Source: Candidatus Pacearchaeota archaeon (GTDB lineage Archaea > Nanoarchaeota > Nanoarchaeia > Pacearchaeales > GW2011-AR1). From it: 11,786 nucleotides of DNA. Positions 1-11,786 of the stretch are shown piece by piece. The stretch lies in NCBI GenBank assembly GCA_002690445.1, contig NZER01000405.1, forward strand, positions 1 through 11,786. The letters run 5' to 3'. The notes under the pieces are model-generated. The model was not told where the DNA came from and searched no databases. It saw only the letters and a list, made by a program, of their open reading frames with translations. The position numbers were made by a program, and so were the translations under genes. Positions within the stretch are counted from its first letter, which is position 1. Every line of letters starts with the position of its first letter.

Positions 1-207
1 GCCATCTCGTTCATCTACCACCACCCTATCACTTCTTATTAACGCATTAAGATACTCTACCATAGTTCTTCTAGAAACACCCCATTCAAACATACAATCT
101 GCAATAAGAAACTCCTCTCTAATCCCTAAACCTCCAGCAGAAGTATCTTTAATACGTTGATAAATCCATTGTATTCTCCTCATCCTCTCTACTTGATTTC
201 TACCCAT
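1..207 (-). CDS. Winged helix-turn-helix transcriptional regulator (3' end cut by window edge)
   Basis: The first 69 codons are visible from an ATG at 207 and the frame is still open at base 1. After a basic N-terminus (MGRNQVERMRR), an amphipathic helix (IQWIYQRIK) leads to a helix-turn-helix-like stretch, residues about 29-60. There the pattern EFLIADCMFEWGVSRRTMVEYLNALIRS matches an HTH whose recognition helix starts at GVSRRT, followed by the start of a wing (DRVVVDERDG). Proteins of this shape bind DNA in archaeal viruses and their hosts. No Shine-Dalgarno sequence precedes the ATG, but a TATA element lies about 30 bases upstream, so the mRNA is probably nearly leaderless. This differs from the SD-led structural genes and suggests an independent, perhaps early, transcription unit. 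The target is unknown; the adjacent inverted repeat or the divergent promoter are candidates (inference). Confidence 0.75.
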   Translation of the reverse strand, partial: MGRNQVERMRRIQWIYQRIKDTSAGGLGIREEFLIADCMFEWGVSRRTMVEYLNALIRSDRVVVDERDG

Positions 208-473: not shown

Positions 474-501
474 GAAAAACGTTATTTTATATAAGTTTTT
501 C
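474..501 (-). terminator. Hairpin/T-rich terminator at the end of the minus operon
   Basis: GAAAAAC (474-480) and GTTTTTC (495-501) form a 7-base inverted repeat with a 14-base AT-rich loop. On the minus strand the second arm supplies a T-run. It begins exactly at the stop codon of the last gene of the minus operon. A second weak hairpin (about 442-449 with 455-461) lies just beyond. Archaeal termination depends mainly on T-runs, so the call is plausible but the stem is weak. Confidence 0.4.
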
Positions 502-797
502 TATCGTTCTTTCCTTACTCTAATAACTATTCTTTTAGTAGGGACAAGGTATTTTCTATATTTTTTTAATCTAGGTAATGGAATCCTTCTCTTTAAAACT
601 TGTTTTACTGTTCTCTGTTTAGAAACTTTAGAAACTCGCTTCTTCTTCTTCCCCTTCTTCACCTTTATCTTTCCTACTTGTTTTTTAAGTTTAGCTTCTG
701 CTCTCCATTGTGCAAGAGCATCTCTTAACTTTTCTCCATCATGCTTCTCTCTCTGCTTTTTAACAAGCTCTGTTGGGTCGGGAAATATATTAACCAT
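501..797 (-). CDS. Small, very basic protein of unknown function (possible nucleic-acid binding virion protein)
   Basis: This gene encodes 98 residues. The first 30 or so form a charged helix (ELVKKQREKHDGEKLRDALAQW), and the rest is dominated by Lys and Arg, with runs such as KKGKKKKR near residue 55 and a basic tail ending in RVRKER. No membrane segment or Cys is present. A protein this basic at the end of a virion operon could coat the genome or sit inside the particle (inference only). The ATG at 797 is preferred because it follows the stop of the upstream gene by one base (TAA A ATG), the tight coupling seen through this operon. An in-frame TTG at 821 would add eight residues inside the upstream gene but has no well-spaced ribosome site. 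This is the last gene of the minus operon. Confidence 0.7.
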   Translation of the reverse strand: MVNIFPDPTELVKKQREKHDGEKLRDALAQWRAEAKLKKQVGKIKVKKGKKKKRVSKVSKQRTVKQVLKRRIPLPRLKKYRKYLVPTKRIVIRVRKER

Positions 798-798
798 T

Positions 799-939
799 TT
801 AATATACCCAAGGGTGCTCAACCTTCTTCACGTGTACGTCAGACCAATGAAAGCCCTTCTTTTTCTTCTTACGGGCTCTCCTAGCTGCCTCTATCCCTAT
901 TGTTGTATAGGGATAATGTTTTCCGTTTACTATTGGCAT
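799..939 (-). CDS. 46-residue basic protein with a H-Y-P-Y-T motif, unknown function
   Basis: A short gene with a strong ribosome site (AGGAGGGG, about 946-957 on the minus strand) ahead of an ATG at 939. The product starts MPIVNGKHYPYTTIGIEAARRARKKKKKG and ends in HPWVY. The form 'K-H-Y-P-Y-T-x-x-G-x-x-A-A' followed by a Lys/Arg run recalls a small basic protein type I have seen near structural genes of archaeal and bacterial viruses; this is recall, not a database result. It follows the 44-residue membrane protein by 16 bases and its stop is one base from the next ATG, so it sits firmly in the operon. It could be mistaken for non-coding DNA because of its length, but the ribosome site, coupling and protein-like composition all support it. 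Confidence 0.72.
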   Translation of the reverse strand: MPIVNGKHYPYTTIGIEAARRARKKKKKGFHWSDVHVKKVEHPWVY

Positions 940-955
940 CTTTCTTTCTCCCCTC

Positions 956-1090
956 CTATTTCTTTAATAAATTTATAGCTTGAACCCCGATAGCTAGACC
1001 AACCATGCCACCTGCTAATGCAAGTGGTGCACTAACCCAATCTACCTTTCTAGGACACCTATAAATTTTCTTAACTTTTCTTTTGGCCAT
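956..1090 (-). CDS. 44-residue single-span membrane protein with basic head
   Basis: The product begins MAKRKVKKIYRCPRK, a strongly basic N-terminus with one Cys, followed by one hydrophobic segment (about residues 19-42, containing ALAGGMVGLAIG) and a KK end. By the positive-inside rule both ends look basic, so orientation is unclear. The ATG at 1090 overlaps the upstream stop in a TAATG junction, the arrangement used by four genes in a row here. The stop TAG at 956-958 lies directly before the ribosome site of the next gene. Function is unknown; a minor membrane component of a virion is an inference from context. It is below the length that many gene callers accept. Confidence 0.68.
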   Translation of the reverse strand: MAKRKVKKIYRCPRKVDWVSAPLALAGGMVGLAIGVQAINLLKK

Positions 1091-1320
1091 TATTTATGTA
1101 ACCTTTTTAATGTTCTTGCGAGTATTGCTCTTCTTTCTAATTTCCTTGTAACTTTAATTCTTTTCTTACCTACCTTATAAGGATTAGTTATTGTATCTCC
1201 TGCCTGTGCTTTAATAATCTTATTCAATAATCCTATTGGTATATTCTTTTCAATAGGAATATCTAATTGTCTTGAAAGTGCTCCTTTCTTAATACCTGCC
1301 TTTTGTATCCATTTTGCCAT
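1090..1320 (-). CDS. 76-residue basic protein with a K-G-A-L / I-P-x-x-L-L motif
   Basis: The product carries the pattern GIKKGALSRQLDIP (residues about 9-22) followed by KNIPIGLLNKIIKA and a basic C-terminal half rich in Arg and Lys (KVTRKLERRAILARTLKRLHK). A segment of the form 'KGAL-x-x-QL-x-x-P...IP...L' recurs, as far as I recall, in small proteins of many dsDNA viruses and phages, usually near head or structural genes; its role is not established to my knowledge. Here it is soluble, with no signal or membrane segment. The ATG at 1320 overlaps the upstream stop (TAATG), and the ribosome site is a G-run (1329-1335) inside the last codons of the preceding gene. The stop likewise overlaps the next start. 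Confidence 0.75.
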   Translation of the reverse strand: MAKWIQKAGIKKGALSRQLDIPIEKNIPIGLLNKIIKAQAGDTITNPYKVGKKRIKVTRKLERRAILARTLKRLHK

Positions 1321-1709
1321 TATCTCTTCCCCCCCATTTTAAATAATTTCTTATGATTATGAAAGAAATTTTTTTGACCATTAAAAACATTCTTTTGTTT
1401 TGCAAACATATTCCCGCTATTAAATATCTTCTTATGATTCAGAAATACATTAGGAGCATAAGCAAGATTATGTTCCTTACCACTCCAAAACTTTCTATTA
1501 TCTCGTTTTCTTATTCCCTTAACTATTTCCTTAATCCTTTTCTGTCTTAACTCTTCCTTATGTCTCATTAATTCTCTTTCATAATGACTGATTCGTTTCT
1601 GTTCGTAGTCTTCTTCGACATATTTCTGCCGGAGATAATGGTTTTTCATCTCTTTCTCTTCAGCTTTTTTATTCCTAAACTCTGCTATTTTGTCTTGTAT
1701 CCATCCCAT
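1320..1709 (-). CDS. Charged helical protein with a C-terminal Phe heptad repeat
   Basis: From the ATG at 1709 this is 129 residues. Residues about 1-72 are a highly charged, probably coiled-coil helix (rich in Glu, Lys, Arg; segments such as HYERELMRHKEELRQKR). The C-terminal third is different: aromatic, Asn- and Lys-rich, with six phenylalanines spaced almost exactly every seven residues and linkers of the type NHKKxF, KQKNVF, GQKNFF. It ends in MGGKR, whose Gly codons double as the G-rich ribosome site of the next gene. The start is uncertain. A GTG at 1727 lies immediately after AGGA, too close for normal initiation, while the ATG at 1709 is 14-17 bases from it. I prefer the ATG. I do not recognise the family. 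Confidence 0.68.
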   Translation of the reverse strand: MGWIQDKIAEFRNKKAEEKEMKNHYLRQKYVEEDYEQKRISHYERELMRHKEELRQKRIKEIVKGIRKRDNRKFWSGKEHNLAYAPNVFLNHKKIFNSGNMFAKQKNVFNGQKNFFHNHKKLFKMGGKR

Positions 1710-1744
1710 GTTATTTGTAAGTTCCACTCCTATTTAGCTTTTTC

Positions 1745-2008
1745 CTAATACTTTATTACTTTACTTAATATCCAGTAAACGCCTAGTACCATTACAACGA
1801 TTAAAGGTATTAAAAACATATCAAAGTTAAACCCCGCTAGTAATATAATGAATAAAGCCATAAACATTCCAAATACTCCGGCAGGCATTCTAAATCTTGC
1901 TCCTAAATATGCAAAGAATATCATAGCTACAACTACAAATATTTCTGCACTTCCTGCGAAGTAATTTATGAATATTTTTTCAAAGTCTAAAGGTTTAACT
2001 AATGCCAT
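1745..2008 (-). CDS. 87-residue membrane protein, three predicted spans
   Basis: Beginning MALVKPLDFEKIF, the protein has hydrophobic segments at about residues 19-37, 43-61 and 64-83, separated by a short loop with Arg residues (GARFRMPAG) and ending in a basic tail (SKVIKY). A longer frame opens at 2104, but its extra part lies wholly inside the upstream gene. The ATG at 2008 has both a good ribosome site (GGAGGAG) and the TAATG overlap with the upstream stop, so that start is chosen. It follows the 138-residue membrane protein and precedes the charged protein by 35 bases. Runs of small membrane proteins beside a spike gene are typical of membrane-containing archaeal virions, but no specific function can be given. 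Confidence 0.78.
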   Translation of the reverse strand: MALVKPLDFEKIFINYFAGSAEIFVVVAMIFFAYLGARFRMPAGVFGMFMALFIILLAGFNFDMFLIPLIVVMVLGVYWILSKVIKY

Positions 2009-2424
2009 TATGTATCTCCTCCACTCCTTACCCAATCCCATAGGGCAAACATATATGAAGCAATAAAAGGAGCTAATATTAAACTTACCAACCAGCCCTG
2101 CCAAGCACCACTTGAGTTATTAGCATATTGGACAACTCTTATCCAATCCCCTAACAATGCAACTAAACTTCCTGCGGCGATTGAGGCAGTTATTCCTACT
2201 GTTATGGCTTGTCTTCCAAATATACCTATCAATACAATCGCTCCTGTGGTAATACCTGCAATCGTAGTTACAATTTTTAAAAACATAGAATCAGAATACC
2301 AGTCTATAATTGTATTTGGATTAATTACATCCATAAAACTTCCAAAGGTACTGCTTATTCCTAGTAAGCCCAATAAGGCACTGAATCCAATTGCTAAAAA
2401 GATGTAAGTATATATTTTTGCCAT
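2008..2424 (-). CDS. 138-residue membrane protein, four predicted spans
   Basis: Hydrophobic segments lie at about residues 7-26, 48-69, 72-92 and 110-131. The loop between the first two holds a D-x-I-N-P-N-T-I motif (about 32-39), and the loop before the last contains the sequon NNSS followed by W-x-x-W (GAWQGWL). The last span contains a Pro (ILAPFIASY) and the tail is short and polar. The gene starts inside the stop of the LamG gene (TAATG at 2424), with a GGGAG ribosome site about 11 bases upstream, so its translation is probably coupled to that of the spike. A partner or anchor for the LamG protein in the virion membrane is a reasonable inference; I know of no named homologue. Confidence 0.8.
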   Translation of the reverse strand: MAKIYTYIFLAIGFSALLGLLGISSTFGSFMDVINPNTIIDWYSDSMFLKIVTTIAGITTGAIVLIGIFGRQAITVGITASIAAGSLVALLGDWIRVVQYANNSSGAWQGWLVSLILAPFIASYMFALWDWVRSGGDT

Positions 2425-5400
2425 TATCTCATATTCTCCCGCAGATAAATTGCTACTGCTATTATTCCAACTATAATTGTAGGAACTCCTCTAGACATTA
2501 TGTCAGGATTAGGATTAGGGAATACTCCAAACACTACATCAAACAAGAATACTAATAACCATGTCTGAACAACTAAAGCCATAGGGGAGTATAGTCCTGT
2601 AGTCATAGCTAGACCTCCTACCATTAAAAATATAAGGGTAAATATTATTAAAAATAATCCTATATTCGATAGACCGAATATACCAGTCCCATCATCCGCC
2701 GTATAACTTTTTAAATCATCAAAGAAGGTTTTTAATCCAAAGCCAAAATTTTCATCATTAATAACCATCCAACTTCTTGTAGAGTTAGAATAATTCCCAG
2801 CTCCTACCGCCCAGAAATATTCCATTAATATGGAACTATTAGACCCAGTGTTTATTACTAAAGTTAAATTCCCACCATTCACAGTAGACCTATTACCTGC
2901 AATAGTTGAACTTGTACCATTCTTAATAGTAAATCCAAATTCTGAAACTTCCCAATATGCAGAAGTTAAATTAAATCCAAAGGTATATTGTGTATTATTA
3001 TTTAATGCGTTTAATGTAGGGGTTATATGGAAATTAACCCCTCTAGCAAAATCATAAGTTTCATTCCCTCCTAATTCTCCCATAGTAATAGTATAGGTAG
3101 TTTGAGTTGGTTGAAATGTAGTAACTAATGTTGGAAATCCAGATTTAACAAAAGTAAAAGTATGGTCTTCATCTCCATTCAAAAAGAAAGTAATGCCCCC
3201 ATCAGACCCAGTATTCCCGCTTCCAACTAATGTTTTTACTCCCCCAATCCCTCTTGTTACATTAACATATACATTTTCTAAAGGGCTGCCTGATGCACTC
3301 TGAACTTGTAGAGTTACATCACCTCCATCTGCAGTGCTTAATAAATATAATGTTTGATTTAATGTTATTATGTCTACTCCATTAAATCCAATAGGAGTGG
3401 CTGTTGCAAATGTTCTTTGTGGATAATCTGTTGCAGAGTATCGAATAGTAAAATCTTGTTTTATTTCTCCAAAATCTTTAGGTGTTGCACAGAAATCATA
3501 GAAAGAAACATTTGCTGTTGTATTTGTATAGCCACTTATAGTTTTATTAATTGCTCCAGTTCCTAAATAAAATGTCCCATCAAAATTTGCTAAAGACCAA
3601 TTTATTGGGTTATCACTTACTTCATCTCTTGCGGTAAAATGAATCATCTTAGGTGAGGTAGAAACAGGATTAGAACACTGAGACACATTAAACAAACTAA
3701 TTGATTGACTTGTGGAATTTGTTGCTATATAAGTTCCACCATAACTTATATTCCAAAAGAAAGTATTAGAGGTAACTCCTATTGGAGTATCAAAACTTGC
3801 AGTAAATTGTGCATTACTATCTGTTCCATTCTTAGCCCCTACATATTCTGTTCCAGCATAATCTAATACTGCTGTAATGGTTTGACTCCCATCAGTTGAA
3901 ATATTAATTTGAAAACTATTATTTGCAGTTTCATACATAGGCGTAGTAAAATTTCTACTATTTTCAAATACTCTATAACTCCAATTTCTAAACGCAGAAT
4001 TTTCATTCCCATGAGTATCATTTGCATAAAGAGTTAGTTCGTATACACCTGAAGCTATAGCAAATGTTGTATGATTTGCCGAACAAGTTAAAGTTGTATT
4101 AGAGCCATTATATTCAAACCAACAACTTTCTAGATTAGTATCATTAATAGTCCAGTTCAAATTAACAGATTTACCAGTCCATATAAAATCGTTAACCTTA
4201 TCTTCAGGAGCAGTTATAGTAATAAGTGGAAGTGTAGTATCAACTGTAAAATCTCTTGCAACCGCTATTGTTTGTGCAGTACTATCAGAAGATTTACAAG
4301 TCCAGTTATGACTTCCCTCTGTAAATCCTGTTCTTAAACTTTCTAAACTTAAATTTGAGGCAGCCGAACTATTTGTAATAGTAATATTAACAACATCATC
4401 TAGTAATAATGTTAGGTTCAAAATTCCGGGGTTTGCACTTGCATCAGTTGCTGAACAATTAAAAGTAATATTTCCAGTTCTACTTTTATGATTATCTGCT
4501 GGAGCATTTAATGTAACTGTAGGTGCTTCTCCAAATTCATTTGTATAAGTAATCCCATCCCCTCCATTATATAACTGAGTTATTTCTGCTTGTGTTATAG
4601 TTCTATTCCATATACCCATCTCATCTAAATAACCATGCCAATCATTCCCTCCATTTTCTTCCTCCCCCATACTGAAACCCATACTCCCTCCATTTTCCAT
4701 ATAACACTCTAAATCCCAAGCTCCACTATTTGAGAAAGTTCCATGTCTTGAACCATCAATATAAAGTGTCTTATTACTTCCTCCTGCGGAAACTACTGCC
4801 ACATGATACCACTGCCCCAATGTTGGAGTAAATACTGAACTTGGGAAATCATATTCTCCTGCATAAGCTATTTGGAATTTATTTGCACTCCAATAATTAT
4901 ATTGGTCTCCACCACAAGCACCAATAGTTCCAACAGTCATAGCTCCGCTTGTGGTATTTGCACTAAACCAGTAAGCTGTTGAGAATGTTGAACCTAAATT
5001 AAAATCACTTGGGATATTACTTAAACCATCAAATAATATTTTATCATTAGCTCCATCAAAATAAACACTCTGCCCTATCTTTGCATAATCTTGATTTCTC
5101 GCACCTGTATAAGTTCCATTAGCTAAACCTCTCACCGCATCAATGGCAGTCGTACTTGCATCAGCACTATCAAACCTATAATAATCTATCAACCCTATAT
5201 TTAAATCCGCAGTCCATTCCGCCCATTCATCTACTTTTTCCCCTAAAATATTTGGTATCCATTCAACTCTATCTCCAACTTTAACCTGTGTAAATAATCC
5301 CAATTCAATTTCTTCTCCTTCTCCTAATGTAAATTCTTTATCAAGAGTAACCCATTTGTCAATCTCTTTAGTTCCATCTTTTACTCTTTCACATTCAGTT

Positions 5401-5795
5401 TTTATACTATTATTAGCTAAAGTTGTTTGTGAGCATTCTGTTTTATATTTATCAACTACTTCTATTTCTTTTCTTTTATATTCAAAATTTCTACTAAACG
5501 CATCTAAATTTGGTAAGTGATAAAAACTCATTTCTTCAAAAATATCATCACCATGATCATCAAAATTTTTAATTGTCATTTTTGCAACTTTTATATCTTG
5601 TCCTGCAATTACATGATTATTCAAAGGAGTATCCAAAGTTATATTTGCTAAATCTTTTCCTAAACAGAAAGCATTTTTTATAGTAACTGTTTGTGTTGCT
5701 TCATTATAGACTTTACAATTATCCCAAGTGTCCGCGCTAACTAAAGGTATTAAAAATACCATTGCCAACATTATTACCATAATTTTCAATTTCAT
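2424..5795 (-). CDS. LamG/Ig-like surface adhesin with C-terminal membrane anchor (candidate virion spike)
   Basis: This 1123-residue protein is exported: a Sec signal (residues 1-21, cleavage likely at VSA-DTW) precedes an extracellular body with many N-x-S/T sequons. Domains, approximately: 22-195, N-terminal region with paired Cys and a W-A-E-W motif near 191; 200-415, concanavalin-type jelly roll of the LamG class (YRFD, then VYFDG, then WYHVAVV, LYIDG and GYLDEMGIWNR, the usual last strand motif); 424-520 and 522-612, Ig-like domains each starting 'P-x-x-T/I-x-x-x-A-P' with matched Cys; 615-820, further beta-rich modules; 824-906, a carboxypeptidase-regulatory-like fold; then 1042-1117, three hydrophobic spans. 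LamG folds bind sugars or proteins, so a host-attachment role is likely. Ig modules of this style are common in DPANN surface proteins. The gene starts one base after the upstream stop. A host cell-surface adhesin is the main alternative. Confidence 0.85.
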   Translation of the reverse strand: MKLKIMVIMLAMVFLIPLVSADTWDNCKVYNEATQTVTIKNAFCLGKDLANITLDTPLNNHVIAGQDIKVAKMTIKNFDDHGDDIFEEMSFYHLPNLDAFSRNFEYKRKEIEVVDKYKTECSQTTLANNSIKTECERVKDGTKEIDKWVTLDKEFTLGEGEEIELGLFTQVKVGDRVEWIPNILGEKVDEWAEWTADLNIGLIDYYRFDSADASTTAIDAVRGLANGTYTGARNQDYAKIGQSVYFDGANDKILFDGLSNIPSDFNLGSTFSTAYWFSANTTSGAMTVGTIGACGGDQYNYWSANKFQIAYAGEYDFPSSVFTPTLGQWYHVAVVSAGGSNKTLYIDGSRHGTFSNSGAWDLECYMENGGSMGFSMGEEENGGNDWHGYLDEMGIWNRTITQAEITQLYNGGDGITYTNEFGEAPTVTLNAPADNHKSRTGNITFNCSATDASANPGILNLTLLLDDVVNITITNSSAASNLSLESLRTGFTEGSHNWTCKSSDSTAQTIAVARDFTVDTTLPLITITAPEDKVNDFIWTGKSVNLNWTINDTNLESCWFEYNGSNTTLTCSANHTTFAIASGVYELTLYANDTHGNENSAFRNWSYRVFENSRNFTTPMYETANNSFQINISTDGSQTITAVLDYAGTEYVGAKNGTDSNAQFTASFDTPIGVTSNTFFWNISYGGTYIATNSTSQSISLFNVSQCSNPVSTSPKMIHFTARDEVSDNPINWSLANFDGTFYLGTGAINKTISGYTNTTANVSFYDFCATPKDFGEIKQDFTIRYSATDYPQRTFATATPIGFNGVDIITLNQTLYLLSTADGGDVTLQVQSASGSPLENVYVNVTRGIGGVKTLVGSGNTGSDGGITFFLNGDEDHTFTFVKSGFPTLVTTFQPTQTTYTITMGELGGNETYDFARGVNFHITPTLNALNNNTQYTFGFNLTSAYWEVSEFGFTIKNGTSSTIAGNRSTVNGGNLTLVINTGSNSSILMEYFWAVGAGNYSNSTRSWMVINDENFGFGLKTFFDDLKSYTADDGTGIFGLSNIGLFLIIFTLIFLMVGGLAMTTGLYSPMALVVQTWLLVFLFDVVFGVFPNPNPDIMSRGVPTIIVGIIAVAIYLRENMR

Positions 5796-5796
5796 T

Positions 5797-6066
5797 CTAT
5801 GTCAAAAATCTTGCTGAGATTAAGGCTCCTGCTATTGCTATTATTACTGCAATAAAATATGGTAATATTAAATCAACTATCAGACACGTTGCTTTTTGTC
5901 CATCGGAAATTGTTCCGTTAAGTTGACTACAATCTAATTGCGTTTCATTTCTAGTTTCACTAATCACATCAGAAATTGGTGCGATGAAAATCATAGCCAT
6001 CATAAAAACCATAATTCCAACCATTAACGCAATCAGAGCAGTTTGCCCTTTTCTATTCATAACCAT
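5797..6066 (-). CDS. 89-residue two-span membrane protein with Cys-bounded loop
   Basis: A short basic start (MVMNRKGQ) is followed by a hydrophobic segment (about 9-30), an exposed loop (31-61) and a second span (about 62-86). The loop contains the motif P-I-S-D-V-I-S-E-T-R, two sequon-like sites and two Cys (46 and 61) well placed for one disulfide. The second span opens with DLILPYF. The RKGQ plus hydrophobic start resembles class III (pilin-like) signal sequences, but the Glu usually found soon after the cleavage site is absent and a second span is present, so I do not call it a pilin. The ATG at 6066 is 11 bases after GGAGGT; an ATG at 6060 would give an ATGA overlap instead. It is directly upstream of the LamG gene, so it may be a partner of the spike. 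Confidence 0.78.
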   Translation of the reverse strand: MVMNRKGQTALIALMVGIMVFMMAMIFIAPISDVISETRNETQLDCSQLNGTISDGQKATCLIVDLILPYFIAVIIAIAGALISARFLT

Positions 6067-8495
6067 CTCGTTCTTTTACCTCCTTTTCTTTTTTTAGCGG
6101 TAATTATTTCTCTTACTTCTCCTTTGGCAGATAATCTGTATGGAGCTTTCTGTATCCAAACATCTTTTAATGGAACTCTTTTCCCCTTAACAATTCTATA
6201 AGTTCTAAATACTTCAGGTGATGGTGTAAAAGCTGGTGCTCTTCTCCCTCTTATTACTCCTGCCTCTACAACTCCAAATGTTGCTCTTAAAGTTCTTCTT
6301 GCTTCTCTTGCTCCAATCCTTATTGCCTCTCCTCTTGGAAATCTTCCTGTAAAGAAAACTCTTTTACCTTTTCTTTTTACAAATACTCTAAATCCTTTAA
6401 CTCCTTCGGGAATTCTTCCCGCTCCAAAAGGAGTTATCTCAGTAGCACTAACTTTTGGAATGAGGGGAGGAACTACAAGTCTTGTTGGACGAATAAAAGG
6501 TTGCGGAACTCTAAACTCTTGACGAACTCCTAATCTAAAAGAAGGAACTATTAATTGTCTTGTAACTATTTTTTGAGTGGGAAGTTGCAATAATGTAGTT
6601 TCTTGTTCTAATAATTGTCTTTGTCTTAATTGTTGTTTTTGTGTTAATCCGAATGCTTGTTCAATAGCTTGACCAACTTTGGGAATTGTTGCAACGATTG
6701 GAACTTGAGGCTGTATTTGTAGTGGAAAATATGTTGGAGGTTGAACAGCAGGAAATTGTCTTACTGCTGGTTGTGTTCGAATCATAGACCTTACTGCACC
6801 AAAACCAGTTGGCAGAACTCCTGCAACAACAGCTCCTTTTGTCGCTTCTTTAGTTACAATTTGTGTTGCAGCTGCTCCTAATCCTGTTGCTTGTCCAAAT
6901 GCAGTTTGTGTAATTTGTTTTTGAACTTGAGGGGTAACTGTTTTAATTAATGGTTTTCCTGCTTTTGCAAATGTAGTTATTTTTCTACCAGTATCTGGTG
7001 CTTTACCAACATAAGCTAAAATTCCTTTTATTTCTGCGTCAGAAATAACTCCTTTCCCTCTAGTGAATAGAGGTTGTGCCGTTCCTCTTAATTTAAATAC
7101 TCCCTCTCTTAGTCTTTGACTTACTCCTAAAAACGGCTGTTCTGTTATTTTTCCTAGCCTTGTTGTTATTACTCTTGGAGCATATAATTCTTTCCTAACT
7201 ACTTCTTTAATTCCTACGATTCCCCTAAAACCTCTTCCCGCTTCTTTTGTTACTTGATATGTTGGACGCACGAAAATTTCTTTTGCTTTTCCTAATCTTT
7301 CAACAACTCCTGCCACTTCAATTTGAGTTAGGTCCATTCTTGGAGGTTGTCTAACCCAACCTCTTCCTGCACTTATTTGTAATTTTTTTCCCACACTAAT
7401 TAATTTTGCATCTGTTCTTCCTACAAATCTTGCTCCTCCAATGTCTGTTCTTGCTGCCGTTTTAATTTCAAATCCTTTAGGTATTTTTTTAACCTTTGAT
7501 ACAAAAATAGTTTCTCCCACAGGTTTTGCTCCTCTTGATATTATTTGTTGAAGTGCTGCCGGAGTTGTAGCCATCAGTGGAGTAAAAGCTATCCATTTAG
7601 AAACATCTGGTATTATTCTCCCTGTTGTTTCTATAACTCCTCTTGCTTTTGGAGAAATTTGAAATATAGGTGGTTTGCCTACACGAGGCTCATCTCTGTA
7701 ACCCACTACCTTTCCAACTGCTTGACTATATTTACCCCAAACATATTGACCTAAACTAATTTTACCGGGAATATCCACTCGTTTTCCTGCAGGTGTTGTT
7801 TTTCCAAATGTTTCTTGCCAACTTATATCTTTAAAGGTTGGAGGTTTTTTTGGGATTCTCATTTCTCTTTGAGGATAAAAAGTAACATCTTGTATGGCTC
7901 TCATTAATCTTTCTTTTGCTGTCCCCGCACTTTCTATTCTAGGCATAGCTTCAGTTGTTGGAGCAATAGTTGAAGGAGAAAATGCTATGGGAGCAGGTTT
8001 ATAGAATACTACTTCACCCGAAGGTCTTCGATATTGAATCTCTCCAGTAATAGTTTGAAATCCTCCTAACCCTTTTAATGCCGCTCTTTGTTCAATAAGT
8101 GCTGTACCATATTCAATCCTTGATAATTCACCTCTATATCCCCTTTGCATCATTTTAGTGAAATCTGGGTCTACAACTCCTCTTCGTGCCATTTTTCTTC
8201 CGTATTCATACTCTTGCTGAAGTCGAAGTCCTGCCTTTGCAGTTTCAAGTTGAGATTGAACAGGAGCAATTTCTTTTTGAAATGCTTGTTCTTGTTTTCT
8301 TAATGCTTGTAAGGATTGTTGTTTTTGTTGTTTAAATCTTGATTGCAGTAATCTCCTTTGTTGTCTTGGTAGTTGTCTTTGTTGTCTAGTAAATTGAAGT
8401 TTTTGTGCTTGTAATTGTTTTTTTGCTTGTGTAAATTGTTTTTGTTGAGAAGTAAGTTGTTGTTCGACTTGAATAACTTGTTGTTGAGTTACCAT
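6057..8495 (-). CDS. 812-residue Gln-rich coiled-coil and basic protein (candidate major internal or structural virion protein)
   Basis: Residues 1-95 are extraordinarily rich in Gln, Lys and Arg (QQ every few residues) and should form a long coiled coil. Residues 100-170 look globular. The centre (about 210-560) is basic and beta-rich, with repeated Gly-Arg and Lys-Ile turns. Residues 580-680 are Pro/Gln-rich with a second Gln-rich helix (617-640). The C-terminal 115 residues form a distinct Arg/Lys domain: GFRVFVKRKGKRV, then RGEAIRIGAREA and LRATFG, and end in a very basic tail (KKRKGGKRTRWL). There is no signal peptide and no clear membrane helix. The start is firm: GGAGGT lies 10 bases before ATG 8495. 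Length, charge and position next to the spike gene suggest a structural protein contacting the genome or acting as scaffold (inference). It has no enzyme motif I can recognise. Confidence 0.82.
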   Translation of the reverse strand: MVTQQQVIQVEQQLTSQQKQFTQAKKQLQAQKLQFTRQQRQLPRQQRRLLQSRFKQQKQQSLQALRKQEQAFQKEIAPVQSQLETAKAGLRLQQEYEYGRKMARRGVVDPDFTKMMQRGYRGELSRIEYGTALIEQRAALKGLGGFQTITGEIQYRRPSGEVVFYKPAPIAFSPSTIAPTTEAMPRIESAGTAKERLMRAIQDVTFYPQREMRIPKKPPTFKDISWQETFGKTTPAGKRVDIPGKISLGQYVWGKYSQAVGKVVGYRDEPRVGKPPIFQISPKARGVIETTGRIIPDVSKWIAFTPLMATTPAALQQIISRGAKPVGETIFVSKVKKIPKGFEIKTAARTDIGGARFVGRTDAKLISVGKKLQISAGRGWVRQPPRMDLTQIEVAGVVERLGKAKEIFVRPTYQVTKEAGRGFRGIVGIKEVVRKELYAPRVITTRLGKITEQPFLGVSQRLREGVFKLRGTAQPLFTRGKGVISDAEIKGILAYVGKAPDTGRKITTFAKAGKPLIKTVTPQVQKQITQTAFGQATGLGAAATQIVTKEATKGAVVAGVLPTGFGAVRSMIRTQPAVRQFPAVQPPTYFPLQIQPQVPIVATIPKVGQAIEQAFGLTQKQQLRQRQLLEQETTLLQLPTQKIVTRQLIVPSFRLGVRQEFRVPQPFIRPTRLVVPPLIPKVSATEITPFGAGRIPEGVKGFRVFVKRKGKRVFFTGRFPRGEAIRIGAREARRTLRATFGVVEAGVIRGRRAPAFTPSPEVFRTYRIVKGKRVPLKDVWIQKAPYRLSAKGEVREIITAKKRKGGKRTRWL

Positions 8496-8623
8496 TTAAT
8501 TTTTACCTCCAAGAAATTTGGAACTTTTTTAAACTTCACAAGTTTTTTTGGAATAGAAATAGAAACCTGTTTAGTTTTTTTATTTACAAATACTTTAGCA
8601 TTAAACTCTCTTTCTTTTTTCAA
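8489..8623 (-). CDS. 44-residue basic beta-type protein, first gene of the minus operon
   Basis: Translation from a TTG at 8623 gives MKKEREFNAKVFVNKKTKQVSISIPKKL and so on, ending LEVKIKW. The alternation F-N-A-K-V-F-V-N-x-K-x-K-Q-V-S-I-S-I-P-K-K-L looks like a beta hairpin followed by a helix, a layout shared with small archaeal DNA-binding or transposon-associated proteins (recalled, not searched). An AAAGGA ribosome site precedes the TTG by about 10 bases, and an in-frame stop lies upstream, so no ATG start is available. The stop overlaps the start of the 812-residue gene by 7 bases, in another frame, and the ribosome site of that gene lies inside this one. Being first after the promoter, it might be regulatory. 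It is too short for most callers. Confidence 0.65.
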   Translation of the reverse strand: MKKEREFNAKVFVNKKTKQVSISIPKKLVKFKKVPNFLEVKIKW

Positions 8624-8655
8624 ATTTATTAATTCCTTTTTTTACTAGTAAAATG

Positions 8656-8689
8656 AACTTTATAAGTTTTATTAAGAACATTTATAAAG
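8656..8689. promoter_or_regulatory. Divergent promoter with two TATA elements, one inside a palindrome
   Basis: The 103-base gap between the divergent operons holds two TATA-like cores: CTTTATAAG (8658-8666), inside the 13-base palindrome AACTT-TAT-AAGTT (8656-8668), and TTTATAAAG (8681-8689). Both cores can be read on either strand. For the minus operon the 8658-8666 site would start transcription near 8636. For the coat operon the same site would start near 8689 and the second near 8711, which would fall in the GGGAGG ribosome site (8710-8715). The palindrome over a TATA core could also be a repressor or activator site. Direction assignments are inference. Confidence 0.55.
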
Positions 8690-8726
8690 ATAAACGCCTT
8701 TCCAAATTTGGGAGGATTGAATATAA

Positions 8727-8945
8727 ATGTTAGGAAATTTAATCGGTGGTTTTATCGTGATTCTTGTTGGAGCAACTCTTGCACCTACAGTAGCTGACGA
8801 AGTAAAGGCAGCACAGAATAATGGAAACATATCTGGAGCGTCAGATACAATTATCGGATTAACAACTCTATTTTACTGTTTAAGTGTTGCGAGTGCCGGT
8901 ATAGGAATTGCAACAGTTGGTTTAAGACAATCAGGTTTAATGTAA
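8727..8945 (+). CDS. Major coat protein candidate, copy 1 (spindle-shaped-virus type)
   Basis: This 72-residue protein has two hydrophobic helices, about 3-22 (starting MLGNLIGGFI) and 41-63 (with LTTLFYCLSVASAGIG), joined by a short polar loop (ADEVKAAQNNGNISGAS), and ends in GLRQSGLM. Size, helix-turn-helix layout, tandem duplication and a small Arg-containing tail fit the major coat proteins of spindle-shaped archaeal viruses (VP1/VP3 class), which lie in the virion shell with lipid. Small hydrophobic coat proteins of rod-shaped viruses, or a membrane pore component, are alternatives. The ATG follows GGGAGG by 11 bases, a strong ribosome site for an abundant product. There is no signal peptide. 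The closely related copy follows after 19 bases and both precede a terminator. Confidence 0.75.
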   Translation: MLGNLIGGFIVILVGATLAPTVADEVKAAQNNGNISGASDTIIGLTTLFYCLSVASAGIGIATVGLRQSGLM

Positions 8946-8964
8946 GATTTCCTCGTAAATTAAA

Positions 8965-9204
8965 ATGTTAGGCAATTTAATTGGAGGATTTATTGTAATA
9001 TTAATCGGAGTAACTCTTGCTCCCACTGTAGCCGACCAAATCGAATTAGCACGAGACCCAGATGGAAATGCAAGTACACCAAATAATGTAACTGGTTCTG
9101 CATCAACAATATTGGGATTGACTACACTATTTTACTGTTTATCAGTAGCTAGTGCTGGAATAGGTCTTGCTGTTACTGGTTTGAGACGAGGCGGTTTAAT
9201 GTAA
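8965..9204 (+). CDS. Major coat protein candidate, copy 2 (paralogue)
   Basis: This 79-residue protein matches copy 1 at 22 of the first 24 residues and about 27 of the last 37. The main difference is about seven extra residues in the central loop (DPDGNASTPNNVTG), which also gains sequons (NAS, NVT). Hydrophobic helices lie at about 3-22 and 48-70, and the C-terminus is GLRRGGLM. Half of the first 24 codons differ silently from copy 1, so the duplication is old and the protein is under strong constraint. Unlike copy 1 there is no clear ribosome site in the 19-base spacer (the nearest bases are AT-rich), so it may rely on coupling from copy 1 or be made at a different level. Role as for copy 1. 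Confidence 0.75.
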   Translation: MLGNLIGGFIVILIGVTLAPTVADQIELARDPDGNASTPNNVTGSASTILGLTTLFYCLSVASAGIGLAVTGLRRGGLM

Positions 9205-9241
9205 ATAGACAAAACAAATACAAATGATTTTTAATTTAAAA

Positions 9242-9279
9242 CGGGGAAAAACCTTAGGGGTTTTCCCTCTTTATTTTTT
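9242..9279 (+). terminator. Hairpin plus T-run after the coat genes (probable leaky terminator)
   Basis: GGGAAAAACC (from 9244) pairs with GGGGTTTTCCC (9257-9267) across a TTAG-type loop, followed by TCTTTATTTTTT (9268-9279). This resembles an intrinsic terminator and includes the T-run that archaeal polymerases use to stop. Genes continue in the same direction only 16 bases later, with no distinct promoter, so partial read-through is likely and would give high coat and low accessory expression. Confidence 0.65.
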
Positions 9280-9294
9280 GGGGGGTGCTAATTA

Positions 9295-9558
9295 ATGGTA
9301 GTATATGATATACCAGCGGTAATGTTTATCTCTGCGGTAGCTTATTTTTTTCTTGCTTGGGGTTATAGAATAAAAGATTTTCTCGTAATATGGATGGGTT
9401 CTTTATTGTGTTTAGGACTTGGAATATTTATTTCAACACAAGGGATTCAAGAATTAAATAATTTTTTAACAGTATTATTATCTTCTGCAAACTTTGCTCT
9501 AGGAGCTTATTTTGGAATAAGAAGTGTTTATGAGTTATTAATAAATAAATATTATTAG
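9295..9558 (+). CDS. 87-residue membrane protein, three predicted spans
   Basis: Hydrophobic segments fall at about residues 7-24, 29-48 and 56-76, with a short basic turn (YRIKD) between the first two and a tail with a few charges (RSVYELLINKYY). The ATG at 9295 is preceded by GGGGGGTG (9280-9286) with a suitable gap. It is the first gene after the terminator and is followed ten bases later by the next ATG, with AGGAGG between. The topology would suit a holin-like or minor virion membrane protein, but there is no motif to decide. It is comparable in size and span number to the 87-residue protein of the left arm, though I see no clear sequence similarity between them. Confidence 0.75.
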   Translation: MVVYDIPAVMFISAVAYFFLAWGYRIKDFLVIWMGSLLCLGLGIFISTQGIQELNNFLTVLLSSANFALGAYFGIRSVYELLINKYY

Positions 9559-9567
9559 GAGGATAAA

Positions 9568-9738
9568 ATGGCAAAAGAAAAAACTGACAAATATGAATTA
9601 GTACAAATTCCAACACAAACTGAAATTGCATTCAGAGATACTGAAGATGAAGGCGAAGAGAATGTTTTACAAGAAAAGGAAGTATTGAGAAGAATTGCAA
9701 ATGATATTGCGGAAATAAAAAACGTATTGGTAAAATGA
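9568..9738 (+). CDS. 56-residue acidic protein with Y-E-L-V-x-x-P-T-Q-T motif
   Basis: AGGAGG (9557-9562) precedes this ATG by about five bases. The product starts MAKEKTDKYELVQIPTQTEIAF, continues with an acidic turn (RDTEDEGEEN) and ends in an amphipathic helix (VLRRIANDIAEIKNVLVK). I recall small archaeal viral and plasmid proteins with the same plan: 'Y-x-L-V-x-V-P-T-x', a D-x-E-x-G turn, then a Leu-Ile helix with N-D-I-x-E-I-K. Their function is unknown to me. There is no membrane segment, so it is probably cytosolic or internal to the particle. Its stop overlaps the next start (ATGA). It falls below usual length cut-offs but is well supported by the ribosome site and coupling. Confidence 0.72.
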   Translation: MAKEKTDKYELVQIPTQTEIAFRDTEDEGEENVLQEKEVLRRIANDIAEIKNVLVK

Positions 9739-10016
9739 TTATAGTAATATTTGAAATAATGGGCAATGCCATTAGAGTAACTATTAAAGGTAAGGAAGTT
9801 TCTTGTAGCGGTAGTGCTGATAATTTTGAAAAAAATTATCCTTTAGATTATTTAATTAAGAATTCTCACAACAAAGATTCAGCAAATTATCTAAAAGATT
9901 TGGAGAATCATTATGCCGCTATGGAAAAAATGGACGGTGAAGAAGATATTTATGATTATATTACACTCGAATTTCAAAAACAAGGTTTTAGAATTATAGG
10001 AGAACAAAGGAGTTGA
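9735..10016 (+). CDS. 93-residue soluble protein of unknown function
   Basis: The first 25 residues look like two beta strands (IIVIFEI, AIRVTIKGKEVSCSG), and the remainder is helical and acidic (LIKNSHNKDSANYLKDLENHYAAMEKMDGEEDIYDYITLEFQKQGF). One Cys is present near residue 24. There is no signal or membrane span. The start ATG shares four bases with the preceding stop (ATGA), so translation is coupled; no strong ribosome site is seen, and an ATG eight codons in is a possible alternative. The five bases before the next ATG follow the stop, with AGGAG at about 10009. I do not recognise the family and assign no function. Confidence 0.68.
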   Translation: MIIVIFEIMGNAIRVTIKGKEVSCSGSADNFEKNYPLDYLIKNSHNKDSANYLKDLENHYAAMEKMDGEEDIYDYITLEFQKQGFRIIGEQRS

Positions 10017-10020
10017 TGCG

Positions 10021-10206
10021 ATGGATTGGAAATGGCTTAATATATTTATGAGAGATATTTGTTTGATGGTGGTGATATTCATTGTAAATTATAAATCACA
10101 TTATCAAAGTTGGTGGGCTGCATTTCTTACGGGGGCGATGGTGGTTTTAACTTCATGGCATTTTGAAGAATGTAAAAAACAATATGAGGAGGTTCGCTTA
10201 AAATGA
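10021..10206 (+). CDS. 61-residue small membrane protein, two predicted spans
   Basis: The sequence shows two hydrophobic stretches, about residues 8-24 (with DICLMVVIFIVNY) and 31-48 (WWAAFLTGAMVVLTSW), then a charged tail (HFEECKKQYEEVRLK). Tryptophans cluster at the start (DWKWLN) and at the second span (SWW, TSW), as expected for membrane-interface positions. AGGAG lies eight to nine bases before the ATG at 10021. The stop overlaps the next start in ATGA. It might be a holin-like or virion membrane protein, but nothing distinguishes these. Confidence 0.7.
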   Translation: MDWKWLNIFMRDICLMVVIFIVNYKSHYQSWWAAFLTGAMVVLTSWHFEECKKQYEEVRLK

Positions 10207-10334
10207 ACTGGGATGGTCTAATTTCTATGACCATTCTAATAACTTTATGTTTATTTGTATGGAGTAAATTCAAACAACAAACATTAAGAGAAACAATAGA
10301 GGGAATAAAAGAACAGGTAGAAAATAATGGATGA
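10203..10334 (+). CDS. 43-residue single-span membrane protein
   Basis: Starting at the ATG that overlaps the previous stop (ATGA) and preceded by GAGGAGG (10187-10193), this short frame encodes MNWDGLISMTILITLCLFVW followed by a charged helix (SKFKQQTLRETIEGIKEQVENNG). One hydrophobic span (about 5-20) plus a soluble amphipathic tail is the whole protein. The layout resembles a small spanin-like or membrane-tethered accessory protein, but there is no family evidence. Its stop lies eight bases inside the next gene. The ribosome site is among the best in this arm, which supports it as real despite its size. Confidence 0.68.
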   Translation: MNWDGLISMTILITLCLFVWSKFKQQTLRETIEGIKEQVENNG

Positions 10335-10770
10335 TTATATGACAGACGAAATGACATCAAGTGAATTGATTAGAAGACATTTACAAGATGCAGACATTGT
10401 AGATGAAAATAGATATGGGGGGCTAGAAGCAGAAGAAAAACTTAACCATTTTAAATTTTTTAAAGATGTAGTTGAACAAACAAATGTTAAAACTGCAAAT
10501 TTAACTGAAGATGAGCTGGGACAAGTTAAGATTCCTGTAAGAACTCATTTAGAAATATCAGAATACTGTAAAGCTATGAATATGAATGCTTTTTCTAACT
10601 ACTTTCAAGCTAAAAGTCAGGTAGTCCAAGCAACTTCATTAAGTAGAGGCGGGTTCTTACCACAATTAGTTGTAACAACTAAGAGGGAAGCAGCAACTAC
10701 CCTGACTAAGACAGGACAACCACAAGTAAACAAGGGATGGTTCAAACCTAAAGAACCAGCACCCTACTGA
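10327..10770 (+). CDS. 147-residue soluble protein of unknown function with L-S-R-x-G-F-L motif
   Basis: The N-terminal half is acidic and helical (MTDEMTSSELIRRHLQDADIVDENRYGG, then EEKLNHFKFFKDVVEQ). The centre has a V-K-I-P-V-R-T-H-L segment followed by two helices (ISEYCKAMNMNAFSNYFQAKSQVV), and then SLSRGGFLPQLVVTTKREAATT. The tail is Pro/Lys-rich (NKGWFKPKEPAPY). The L-S-R-x-G-F/W-L pattern after a dimer-like helical region recalls small archaeal viral proteins I have seen without assigned function. A short AGGT site lies eight bases upstream and the start overlaps the preceding gene by eight bases. No membrane segment is present. A DNA-binding or virion-internal role is possible but unproven. 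Confidence 0.75.
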   Translation: MDDYMTDEMTSSELIRRHLQDADIVDENRYGGLEAEEKLNHFKFFKDVVEQTNVKTANLTEDELGQVKIPVRTHLEISEYCKAMNMNAFSNYFQAKSQVVQATSLSRGGFLPQLVVTTKREAATTLTKTGQPQVNKGWFKPKEPAPY

Positions 10771-10781
10771 AAGGAGGTAAA

Positions 10782-11324
10782 ATGAAGAAAGAATTATCTC
10801 TAACTGAACAAATTGATAAAATCGAAGGGATGATAACAGATATTTCTTCTGGAAAGAAGAAAAAAAAGGGATTTAAACTTCCATTAGGTATAAGAATGAA
10901 TAAAGGGAAGTTTAGAAAAGACCATGTTCTTGTATTAATAATAAGTTCTAACAAAGAAGCTCAATTTAAGGTCTGTAAGATTGAAGATGATACAATTATG
11001 ATTGATAAAGCAATTTATGATGCCAGAAGTGGAAATATTTTAAGATATAAGAACTTCCCACTACTTATTTTAACGGAATGGAACACTCAACCTGTTACTT
11101 CAAAGGGAGAAATGGAGAAACATAGGGAATTTAACTCCGAAAATGATTACAAGGTGGCGGAAACCAACGGAAATCTGACATCACCTCAAAGGTTAATATT
11201 AACTAAAATGGAAATGGAGGCCGTAAAACCAAAGATGGCATTTAATGTAAAAACATTAGTTGCTATTCTTGTATTATTAGGTGGAATATATTTTATTTTA
11301 GACTATTTCAAGATATTAGCTTAA
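10782..11324 (+). CDS. 180-residue tail-anchored membrane protein with K-G-F-K-L-P domain
   Basis: A strong ribosome site (AAAGGAGGT, 10771-10778) precedes the ATG. Residues 1-23 form a helix; then a Lys run (GKKKKKGFKLPLGIRM) opens a beta-rich domain (about 29-105) with NKGKFRKDHVLVLIIS, IEDDTIMID, and ILRYKNFPLLILTEWNTQP. A flexible polar stretch (105-135) and a short helix (LILTKMEMEAV) follow. A single hydrophobic span (about 156-176) ends the protein, so the large domain faces the cytosol or virion interior. I recall an unannotated archaeal and viral family with the same order (K-F-K-L-P, K-x-x-x-K-x-x-V-x-V-L, I-D-x-x-x-x-A, L-x-Y-K-N-x-P-x-x-I-x-P/T-x-W); this is memory, not a search. 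A membrane adaptor for the genome or coat is a guess. Confidence 0.78.
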   Translation: MKKELSLTEQIDKIEGMITDISSGKKKKKGFKLPLGIRMNKGKFRKDHVLVLIISSNKEAQFKVCKIEDDTIMIDKAIYDARSGNILRYKNFPLLILTEWNTQPVTSKGEMEKHREFNSENDYKVAETNGNLTSPQRLILTKMEMEAVKPKMAFNVKTLVAILVLLGGIYFILDYFKILA

Positions 11325-11328
11325 AAGA

Positions 11329-11562
11329 ATGAAATCAAGAAAGAGAAAGATAAGAATTATTAAACATTCCAGCAATCCTGAGGGGTTTACTGCTAAGTTA
11401 GACATCTGGGATGAGACTTATGCCAAGATTTACAACTATAAGTTCTCTCTGAGAGATGAAAAGGCTGTTTACAACGTTTTAAAGGCTATAGAGGGCATAA
11501 TAGGCACCTCCATAGTGGGAATAATAAAGAAATTCAATAAGACGGGGGATAAATTCTGGTAG
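11329..11562 (+). CDS. 77-residue basic protein of unknown function
   Basis: The N-terminus is strongly basic (MKSRKRKIRIIKHSS). Two beta-like stretches follow (GFTAKLDIWDE, AKIYNYKFSLRDE), then a helix (AVYNVLKAIEGIIGTSIVGIIKKF) and a basic end (NKTGDKFW). There is no clear membrane span, although the Gly/Ile-rich helix is moderately hydrophobic. It starts four bases after the stop of the tail-anchored protein, with only a weak ribosome site, and is the last gene of the plus operon before a 74-base gap with a hairpin. Composition suggests nucleic-acid contact, but this is inference only. Confidence 0.68.
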   Translation: MKSRKRKIRIIKHSSNPEGFTAKLDIWDETYAKIYNYKFSLRDEKAVYNVLKAIEGIIGTSIVGIIKKFNKTGDKFW

Positions 11563-11636: not shown

Positions 11637-11786
11637 ATGGATGATGCAAAGAAAGTTGCCTTTAACTTAAGTCAATTGATGATGATGGAACTACATAGAT
11701 TGCTCCAGAGAACTCATAACCACTATTTAAATTGCGAGTGGACAAAATGTTTTCATACTTTGAGGTGTATTAAATTTAATGTCATA
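11637..11786 (+). CDS. Partial small helical protein (3' end cut by window edge)
   Basis: From an ATG at 11637 the frame stays open for 50 codons to the last base. The product (MDDAKKVAFNLSQLMMMELHRLL, then QRTHNHYLNCEWTKCFHTLRCIKFNVI) looks like two amphipathic helices with a Y-L-x-C-E-W-x-K-C turn. There is no convincing ribosome site. A TATA-like TAATATAAT (11617-11625) lies only about 16 bases upstream of the ATG, closer than the usual TATA-to-start distance, so either an ATG further in (11679-11685) is the true start or the promoter call is wrong. Function is unknown. It follows the hairpin at 11573-11610 and is probably a separate transcription unit. Confidence 0.5.
   Translation, partial: MDDAKKVAFNLSQLMMMELHRLLQRTHNHYLNCEWTKCFHTLRCIKFNVI

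Follow-up and report, generated by a model that had tools for sequence, protein, structure and literature searches.

The window analysed here, the whole 11,786-base stretch of contig NZER01000405.1, very probably represents the virion-building part of an uncultivated archaeal virus that is related to the spindle-shaped viruses and has a double-stranded DNA genome, probably a circular one. Homology of two small coat proteins, the domains of a large spike protein, a conserved gene set and gene order, and the apparent circularity of relatives carry this assignment, and the module is that of a real virus, probably representing a new family-level lineage among the known spindle-type viruses. The original prediction, made from the letters of the window, had described a compact virion-building module of an archaeal virus, with twin two-helix coat-type proteins, a signal-bearing spike of LamG and immunoglobulin-like (Ig) domains with three C-terminal spans, and at least six further small membrane proteins in two divergent operons, and had related it to the spindle-shaped viruses of archaea. 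The results agree with these claims: the viral nature of the module is borne out by the coat homology and the gene order conserved in relatives, and the kinship with spindle-shaped viruses by matches of the coats to PHROG 11172, to the VP1/VP3 proteins of fuselloviruses and to VP1 of Sulfolobus spindle-shaped virus (SSV) 19, together with the shared gene order.

The coat proteins, of 72 and 79 residues (positions 8727–8945 and 8965–9204, plus strand), each have two hydrophobic stretches and are predicted to adopt an alpha-hairpin of the VP1/VP3 type. Over 72 codons, their genes differ at 20, 11 and 38 sites in codon positions 1, 2 and 3, respectively, and because the differences fall mostly at third positions, both genes appear to be maintained. 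PHROG 11172, annotated as “virion structural protein”, matches the 72-residue protein at E 9.5e-5 and the 79-residue protein at E 6.8e-7, and the latter also matches PHROG 5402 (E 2.3e-4) and the coat family of the relatives (hhalign 99.7%). The profile search that had been proposed as a check led to the spindle-virus coats: a HMMER profile of the coat family (35 members) retrieves SSV19 VP1 (PDB code 7xdi_A) at E 1.4e-7, the sole other match in the PDB having E 2.3. When 20 profiles, which stand for 19 gene families because the coat has two, were compared by hhalign with 25 reference sets drawn from the records of six viruses (SSV1, SSVK1, ASV1, SSV19, SMF1, and His1), the two highest scores were those of the coat with fusellovirus VP1/VP3 (97.2% and 96.5%), and the coat scored 41% (26 columns) and 32% with His1 ORF21. 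Two other families of the relatives, p172 and twin90, reach 82% and 70% with VP1/VP3, links that are weaker than that of the coat because hydrophobic hairpins this short may resemble each other by chance. All pairs beyond these and the ATPase matches described below score less than 25%. The twin proteins are thus relatives, by sequence, of the SSV coat protein. We would expect the two paralogues to form a flexible shell, as VP1/VP3 do in SSVs, and the particle may be spindle-shaped. A cellular membrane family was considered for the coats and rejected, since the better matches are the virion families and SSV19 VP1; the Pfam matches of the 72-residue protein to DUF7521, XM1 gp53, and DUF7525 (E 0.016–0.3) lie below cut-off and were likewise set aside.

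The coat family is large. With the 79-residue protein as query, 739 homologues are found at E≤0.01, and the identical 72-residue coat is present on at least 69 contigs. An N-glycosylation site is located in the hairpin turn (residues 23–60) in 120 of the 120 best coats out of the 739, a set of sequences related to each other, where 60.6 would be expected from shuffles of the segment. A tblastn search of 50,697 phage records gave no match to the 79-residue coat at E≤10 and four weak matches to the 72-residue coat, all in fusellovirus records (E 0.03–0.2). Nothing was retrieved when IMG/VR was scanned with the 79-residue protein as single query, but the coat alignment did find contigs there, seven in number, of which six are long (27–42 kb).

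Direct repeats of 123–144 bp are present at the ends of four of the six long contigs, a 21-bp repeat in one, and none in one, and an exact inverted end repeat occurs in none of the six. Because of their 123–144-bp repeats, four of these relatives appear to be circular and complete, with genomes of 27.3–36.4 kb. All six long contigs share one gene order on one strand: coat, (variable genes), p199, p59a, p107, p59b, p147, p180, p77, p54, a large basic protein (922–1247 residues), twin90 in two copies, spike, p138, p98, p130, and p172. One of them (G006), which lacks an end repeat, can be fitted to this order only by joining the end of the contig to its start. Eleven families (coat, p199, p107, p147, p180, the large basic protein, twin90, spike, p138, p98, and p172) are recognised in all six contigs, and p59a, p59b, p77, p54, and p130 in some of them. 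The gene-order comparison with archaeal viral contigs, also proposed with the prediction, therefore shows the module in one order in six long IMG/VR contigs. A distant relative (L040, a 36.9-kb record), found through an alignment of the ATPase (28% identity), has genes for the coat, a p199-like protein, p147, a p180-like protein, and the large basic protein that follow this order, p199 and p180 being recognised by eye, with the ATPase divergent; its coat matches PHROG 11172 at E 1.2e-5. An operon fixed in a chromosome was rejected as an explanation, as the long relatives are stand-alone records, four of them with end repeats. A marine element described in PMC12324425 is, as far as the part of that paper available to us goes, another element and not the present one.

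The window itself, with a GC content of 27–38% in 500-base windows, has two divergent gene runs as predicted, leading leftwards from 8623 on the minus strand and rightwards from 8727 on the plus strand, separated by a gap of 103 bases with intact flanking genes. Comparison of the window proteins with 27 family profiles of the relatives by hhalign places coat, coat, p199 (87 residues), p59a, p107, a 61-residue protein, p59b, p147, p180, and a 77-residue protein on the plus strand, and a doubtful p54, an 812-residue protein, twin90 (one copy), spike, p138, p98, and p130 on the minus strand. The large variable protein that follows the coat in several relatives is missing from the window. Compared at this level, the divergent operons look like a single inversion of the segment from the coat to the 77-residue protein. 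This model predicts that p136 and the ATPase, which in the relatives lie near the coat, should be found immediately beyond the right end of the window. The plus-strand open reading frame (ORF) that is cut off at the right end (11637–11786, first 50 codons) is the best of 74 window ORFs against p136, with 3.9 bits compared with 3.5 for the next, a score reached by 40 of 5000 shuffles; hhalign gives no support, and the identity was judged too weak to claim.

In the relatives, the ATPase comprises 306–343 residues with a DGxEGxGKS motif and a DEA box. It matches PHROG 5484 (“DnaA-like”) at E 0.0013, with all Pfam NTPase matches below threshold, and the family profile scores 83% over 77 columns with SSV B251 and 72% over 253 columns with His1 ORF16. 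In all ten contigs where coat, ATPase, and p136 are seen, the latter two genes are near the coat, and in nine of them (G001, G003–G007, L002, L008, and L009) they are divergent from it. In the tenth (L010) the ATPase block is on the strand of the coat, from which it follows that orientation changes occur in the lineage. The ATPase of one relative gave no tblastn match among the phage records at E≤10. As side observations, a stretch of the Hint/LAGLIDADG (intein-like) type splits the DnaA-like ATPase gene of L010 (L010:6377-9206), and one long relative (G007) encodes a restriction-modification-like protein (HSDR_N plus N6_Mtase), a Y1 transposase, and a Prim-Pol (L025:5606-7858, L025:1415-2896, and L026:12687-13934).

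The spike (2424–5795, minus strand) is a protein of 1123 residues that matches the spike family of the relatives at hhalign 100%. It contains a hydrophobic signal at residues 3–21, an N-terminal beta domain, a LamG_3 domain at residues 264–405 (Pfam, E 1.1e-16), Ig-like domains, of which the Pfam match is below threshold (Big_7, 19.9 bits for a cut-off of 24.1), a conserved C-terminal stalk, and three hydrophobic stretches within residues 1045–1117. AlphaFold2 (AF2) models the protein as a chain of beta domains followed by three final helices, with a mean predicted local distance difference test (pLDDT) score of 75.9 and a predicted template-modelling (pTM) score of 0.35, so that the relative placement of the domains is not fixed by the model. 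A fold search with this model gave 564 matches at E≤0.001; the best 50 are viral, several being named LamG, Ig or concanavalin-like, but the query template-modelling scores are ≤0.19 in all of these 50, and the matches are uninformative on kinship. Residues 600–1123 have 28 homologues among 7992 scored database candidates, while the N-terminal part varies among relatives. This combination is consistent with a constant stalk and anchor whose receptor-binding head can be exchanged. The 42 N-glycosylation sites of the spike, compared with a mean of 18 and a maximum of 31 in 500 shuffles, suggest a glycosylated surface protein. We propose that the spike is anchored by its three C-terminal helices, probably at an end of the particle, and that its LamG/Ig ectodomain would bind glycans of the host surface. 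Among the phage records, the window spike has no tblastn match at E≤0.1, and the spike of one relative (G004) matches two records of one cyanophage with the LamG part alone.

The prediction had gone further and regarded the spike as one that had been replaced by a DPANN-style LamG/Ig architecture. The idea of a replacement is not supported in that form. The spike has an identical position in all six long contigs, and LamG, found in six of the seven records, lies within the spike in five of the six long ones (it is missing in G007). Moreover, according to the part of PMC12934983 available, the core genes of all four families of Thermococcales spindle viruses (PAV1, TPV1; “Osirisviridae”, “Sethviridae”) include those of two lectin-domain proteins with membrane helices, each genome having two conserved ones, and the lectin spike is therefore a shared rather than a new feature; the likeness is one of description. 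Two relatives (G001 and G003) have a second LamG domain in a large protein between coat and p199, which adds to the likeness to these two-lectin viruses. As for the “DPANN-style” wording, the evidence is circumstantial. Four long spike homologues in metagenome-assembled genomes (MAGs) belonging to the same phylum as Archaeon BMS3Abin17 (L052, L053, L054, and L056) are viral and not of the host, since their contigs carry other genes of the same virus group, namely p199 homologues and, in one case, an ATPase homologue. In four further genomes of that phylum (L043, L045, L047, and L048), LamG/Ig stretches alone match; these may be cellular, which would favour the wording. Three of the loci with spike and p199 homologues (L053, L052, and L056, in G189 and G335) show no recognised coat in the stretch fetched. 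In L053, two tandem proteins of 107–109 residues, in which KKAQTSG occurs close to the N-terminus, might represent an alternative coat pair; PHROG gives nothing for one of them.

Besides coats and spike, eight small membrane proteins were counted in a Kyte-Doolittle scan (956–1090, 1745–2041, 2008–2424, 5797–6066, 9295–9558, 10021–10206, 10203–10334, and 10782–11324), in keeping with the predicted six or more. The 89-residue two-helix protein of family twin90 (5797–6066, minus strand; hhalign 99.5%) has an N-terminus resembling archaeal (class III) pilins, and MNKKG-like N-termini are seen in this protein and its kin. The archaeal prepilin-peptidase motif fits 11 of 17 sequences, 6 of 11 in twin90 and 5 of 6 in p172. 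The 89-residue protein may serve as an additional, minor hairpin protein that a pilin-type peptidase of the host probably cleaves. Its neighbour, a basic, glutamine-rich protein of 812 residues (6057–8495, minus strand), occupies the gene position of the 922–1247-residue proteins of the relatives and aligns with them at hhalign 89.7% over 95 columns. It has a net charge of +92, within a range of +65 to +98 measured for this protein and six counterparts, and is probably internal, where it would bind or condense DNA. Two relatives encode, between twin90 and the gene of the large basic protein, small proteins with CxxC motifs that resemble zinc ribbons (G003 6920-7045 and G004 7643-7798).

The p138, p98, p147, and p180 proteins are candidates for end-cap, adaptor or assembly factors. 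The 138-residue p138 membrane protein (2008–2424, minus strand; hhalign 97.0%) directly follows the spike and has four hydrophobic stretches, and the 98-residue p98 membrane protein (1745–2041, minus strand; hhalign 99.1%) comes next. The helical 147-residue p147 protein (10327–10770, plus strand; hhalign 99.5%), a core gene product, has 295 homologues; a fold search with its AF2 model (pLDDT 69) found nothing below E 1.7, the phage records gave no tblastn match at E≤1, and its alignment was too diverse to be used for a scan of loci. The 180-residue p180 protein (10782–11324, plus strand; hhalign 99.1%) has a C-terminal membrane span. IMG/VR scans with the 812- and 138-residue proteins as single queries found nothing.

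The remaining plus-strand products are an 87-residue membrane protein (9295–9558), corresponding to a part, by eye the C-terminal one, of the ~200-residue p199 (hhalign 95.5% over 73 columns), an acidic 56-residue p59a protein (9568–9738; 96.6%), a 93-residue p107 protein (9735–10016; 69.6%), a 61-residue protein with one hydrophobic stretch and no family match (10021–10206; best score 5.9%), a single-span 43-residue p59b protein (10203–10334; 97.4%), and a basic 77-residue protein assigned to p77 by position (11329–11562; 4.6%). On the minus strand, a basic 129-residue p130 protein (1320–1709; 96.7%) is placed after the spike block, and a basic 44-residue protein (8489–8623) is a possible p54 counterpart from its position and a score of 37.7%. 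Further to the left, four small basic frames lie on the minus strand between 501 and 1320, one of which (501–773) has a net charge of +30 in 90 residues. An imperfect inverted repeat (248–275 and 333–360, with 28-nt arms that are 86% complementary and 57 nt between them) separates the left operon from an open ORF of at least 69 residues at 1–207 (minus strand), which by eye resembles a small winged-helix DNA-binding protein and has no family match. Scans of the window for tRNA genes and Rfam families found none.

The window shares tandem VP1/VP3-type coat paralogues with Fuselloviridae (SSV1, SSV19, ASV1), and its relatives share apparently circular genomes and a DnaA-like ATPase with a gene of ~135–155 codons beside it, although a pair of p136 and the partner family of SSV A153 is not among the best 45 pairs listed. 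The relatives are larger (27–42 kb) than five SSV-type records (13–24 kb), and the tyrosine recombinase (PF00589), a feature of Fuselloviridae, occurs in only one of seven relatives, whereas the other six have a serine resolvase. With Halspiviridae (His1) the relatives share a small two-span coat-type gene and a nearby DnaA-like ATPase on the opposite strand. However, His1 is linear and encodes a type B DNA polymerase, while four relatives have direct end repeats, which suggest circles, and the protein-primed polymerase B of Halspiviridae and Thaspiviridae (PF03175) is absent from all seven, with His1 as a positive control (1/1). Spindle viruses with two major capsid protein (MCP) genes have been described for anaerobic methanotrophic archaea (ANME-1) in the part of PMC9894754 that was available.

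The host is probably a DPANN archaeon, as judged from metagenome bins and labels. A scan of species genomes with the coat alignment found only three confirmed loci, in two MAGs, Candidatus ainarchaeum sp. STF1_257 and Archaeon BMS3Abin17; related viral contigs are present in MAGs of the BMS3Abin17 phylum (G353, G335, and G189), whose genomes measure 0.4–2.1 Mb, and one coat homologue among the matches listed is labelled Pacearchaeota. The literature searched contained no description of spindle viruses of DPANN archaea, a DPANN virome paper (10.1038/s41564-024-01839-y) lying outside its reach. We tentatively propose, at somewhat below even confidence, a widespread unnamed spindle-type family of DPANN archaea with circular 27–42-kb genomes, recombinases, VP1/VP3-type hairpins together with hairpins matured by a pilin peptidase, and a lectin spike with a variable ectodomain and a fixed stalk and anchor.

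Several observations weigh against this assignment or the host proposed with it. No gene of the window itself is recognised as encoding an ATPase, a recombinase or a replication protein, so that the links through the ATPase and the recombinases run through the relatives. No Pfam model scores above cut-off for either coat, the alignment of the 812-residue protein with its family covers just those 95 columns, and the four small frames at 501–1320 reach no hhalign score above 6% with the 27 family profiles tried. Unlike in Fuselloviridae, counterparts of VP2, VP4, and the C166/C131 family were not recognised, no hhalign score exceeding 4% in the comparison of 20 profiles, with p1037, p59a, p59b, and the SSV19 adaptor B210 outside that comparison. 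BMS3Abin17 and ainarchaeum are taken here to be DPANN archaea; the NCBI taxonomy lists BMS3Abin17 only under unclassified Archaea, the ainarchaeum name not being found there. Just 2 of the 371 genomes searched in one phylum, and 1 of 87 in the other, have a coat gene. Among the relatives of the spike, the labels Staphylothermus and Nitrososphaerales also occur, and bins can include stray viral contigs. A search of the 371 genomes with the window DNA, not aimed at spacers, gave no convincing spacer-like match among the matches listed. At E≤1 it matched 365 of the 371 genomes, being swamped by chance matches because the DNA is AT-rich, and seven of ten loci from it that were examined contained related spikes, N-terminal parts of spikes, and other LamG/Ig stretches, and no spacers.

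Among alternative readings, the one that deserves most attention, although we consider it rather unlikely, is that the window belongs in, or is sister to, Nipumfusiviridae, which would mean that the lineage has been described before and that its host lies outside DPANN. In the available part of its description (PMC10866085), this family comprises NYMAG-47 and 10 relatives with genomes of 27–38 kb and putative ammonia-oxidising archaeal hosts. Its core consists of the MCP, an ATPase, a zinc-binding protein, and three unknown core proteins. The size range, the remote similarity of the MCP to SSV19 VP1, the shared ATPase, and the lack of polymerase B and of SSV19-type tail proteins all agree with the present group, as do the CxxC proteins of G003 and G004 when set beside the zinc-binding core protein, and one spike homologue is labelled as a Nitrososphaerales archaeon. 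The same text gives the MCP 89 residues, a hairpin turn that in the group is 10–20 residues longer than in earlier spindle viruses, and an HHpred score of 75.4% to VP1, which contrasts with coats of 72–79 residues that reach VP1 at E 1.4e-7 with HMMER, and the coat loci of the species-genome scan are in MAGs of other archaea. The two groups are set apart here by description, in coat length, turn, and proposed host. Far less probable is a virus-derived or plasmid-like element that forms no infectious particle, such as a plasmid spread by vesicles or a domesticated surface apparatus. The many membrane-protein genes, and the fact that no packaging enzyme is recognised in the window, would suit such an element. 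It is opposed by the relationship of the coat to VP1, by the 11 families kept in one order in six long contigs, with five more in some, and by the exact 72-residue coat on at least 69 contigs, which fits a spreading virus.

A separate question is whether the divergent operons are an artefact of assembly, the true genome having its module on one strand as in the relatives. We regard this as distinctly improbable, even though the block is on one strand in all six long relatives (in G006 if joined end to start) and in the MAG contig L054. The genes beside the junction are intact with a 103-base gap between them, a single inversion accounts for the entire arrangement, the incomplete ORF at 11637 bears a weak resemblance to p136, and the ATPase block of L010 is an instance of a different orientation.

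With the window read as the virion module of a spindle-type archaeal virus, the coat profile reaches SSV19 VP1 by sequence comparison alone, and such viruses can therefore be found without structure prediction. Sixteen candidate virion genes are listed that can be sought in a particle, 11 of them in all six long relatives. The lectin spike and the VP1-type shell occur together, a combination published for other spindle viruses, and one that bears on the choice of host. If the host is indeed a DPANN archaeon, the 739 coat homologues, with one exact coat on at least 69 contigs, would mean that coat modules of the spindle type are frequent among the viruses of an archaeal group that ranks among the least known, and if the proposed DPANN family is real, viruses of nanosized, host-attached cells would carry lectins that must distinguish the small cell from its larger partner.

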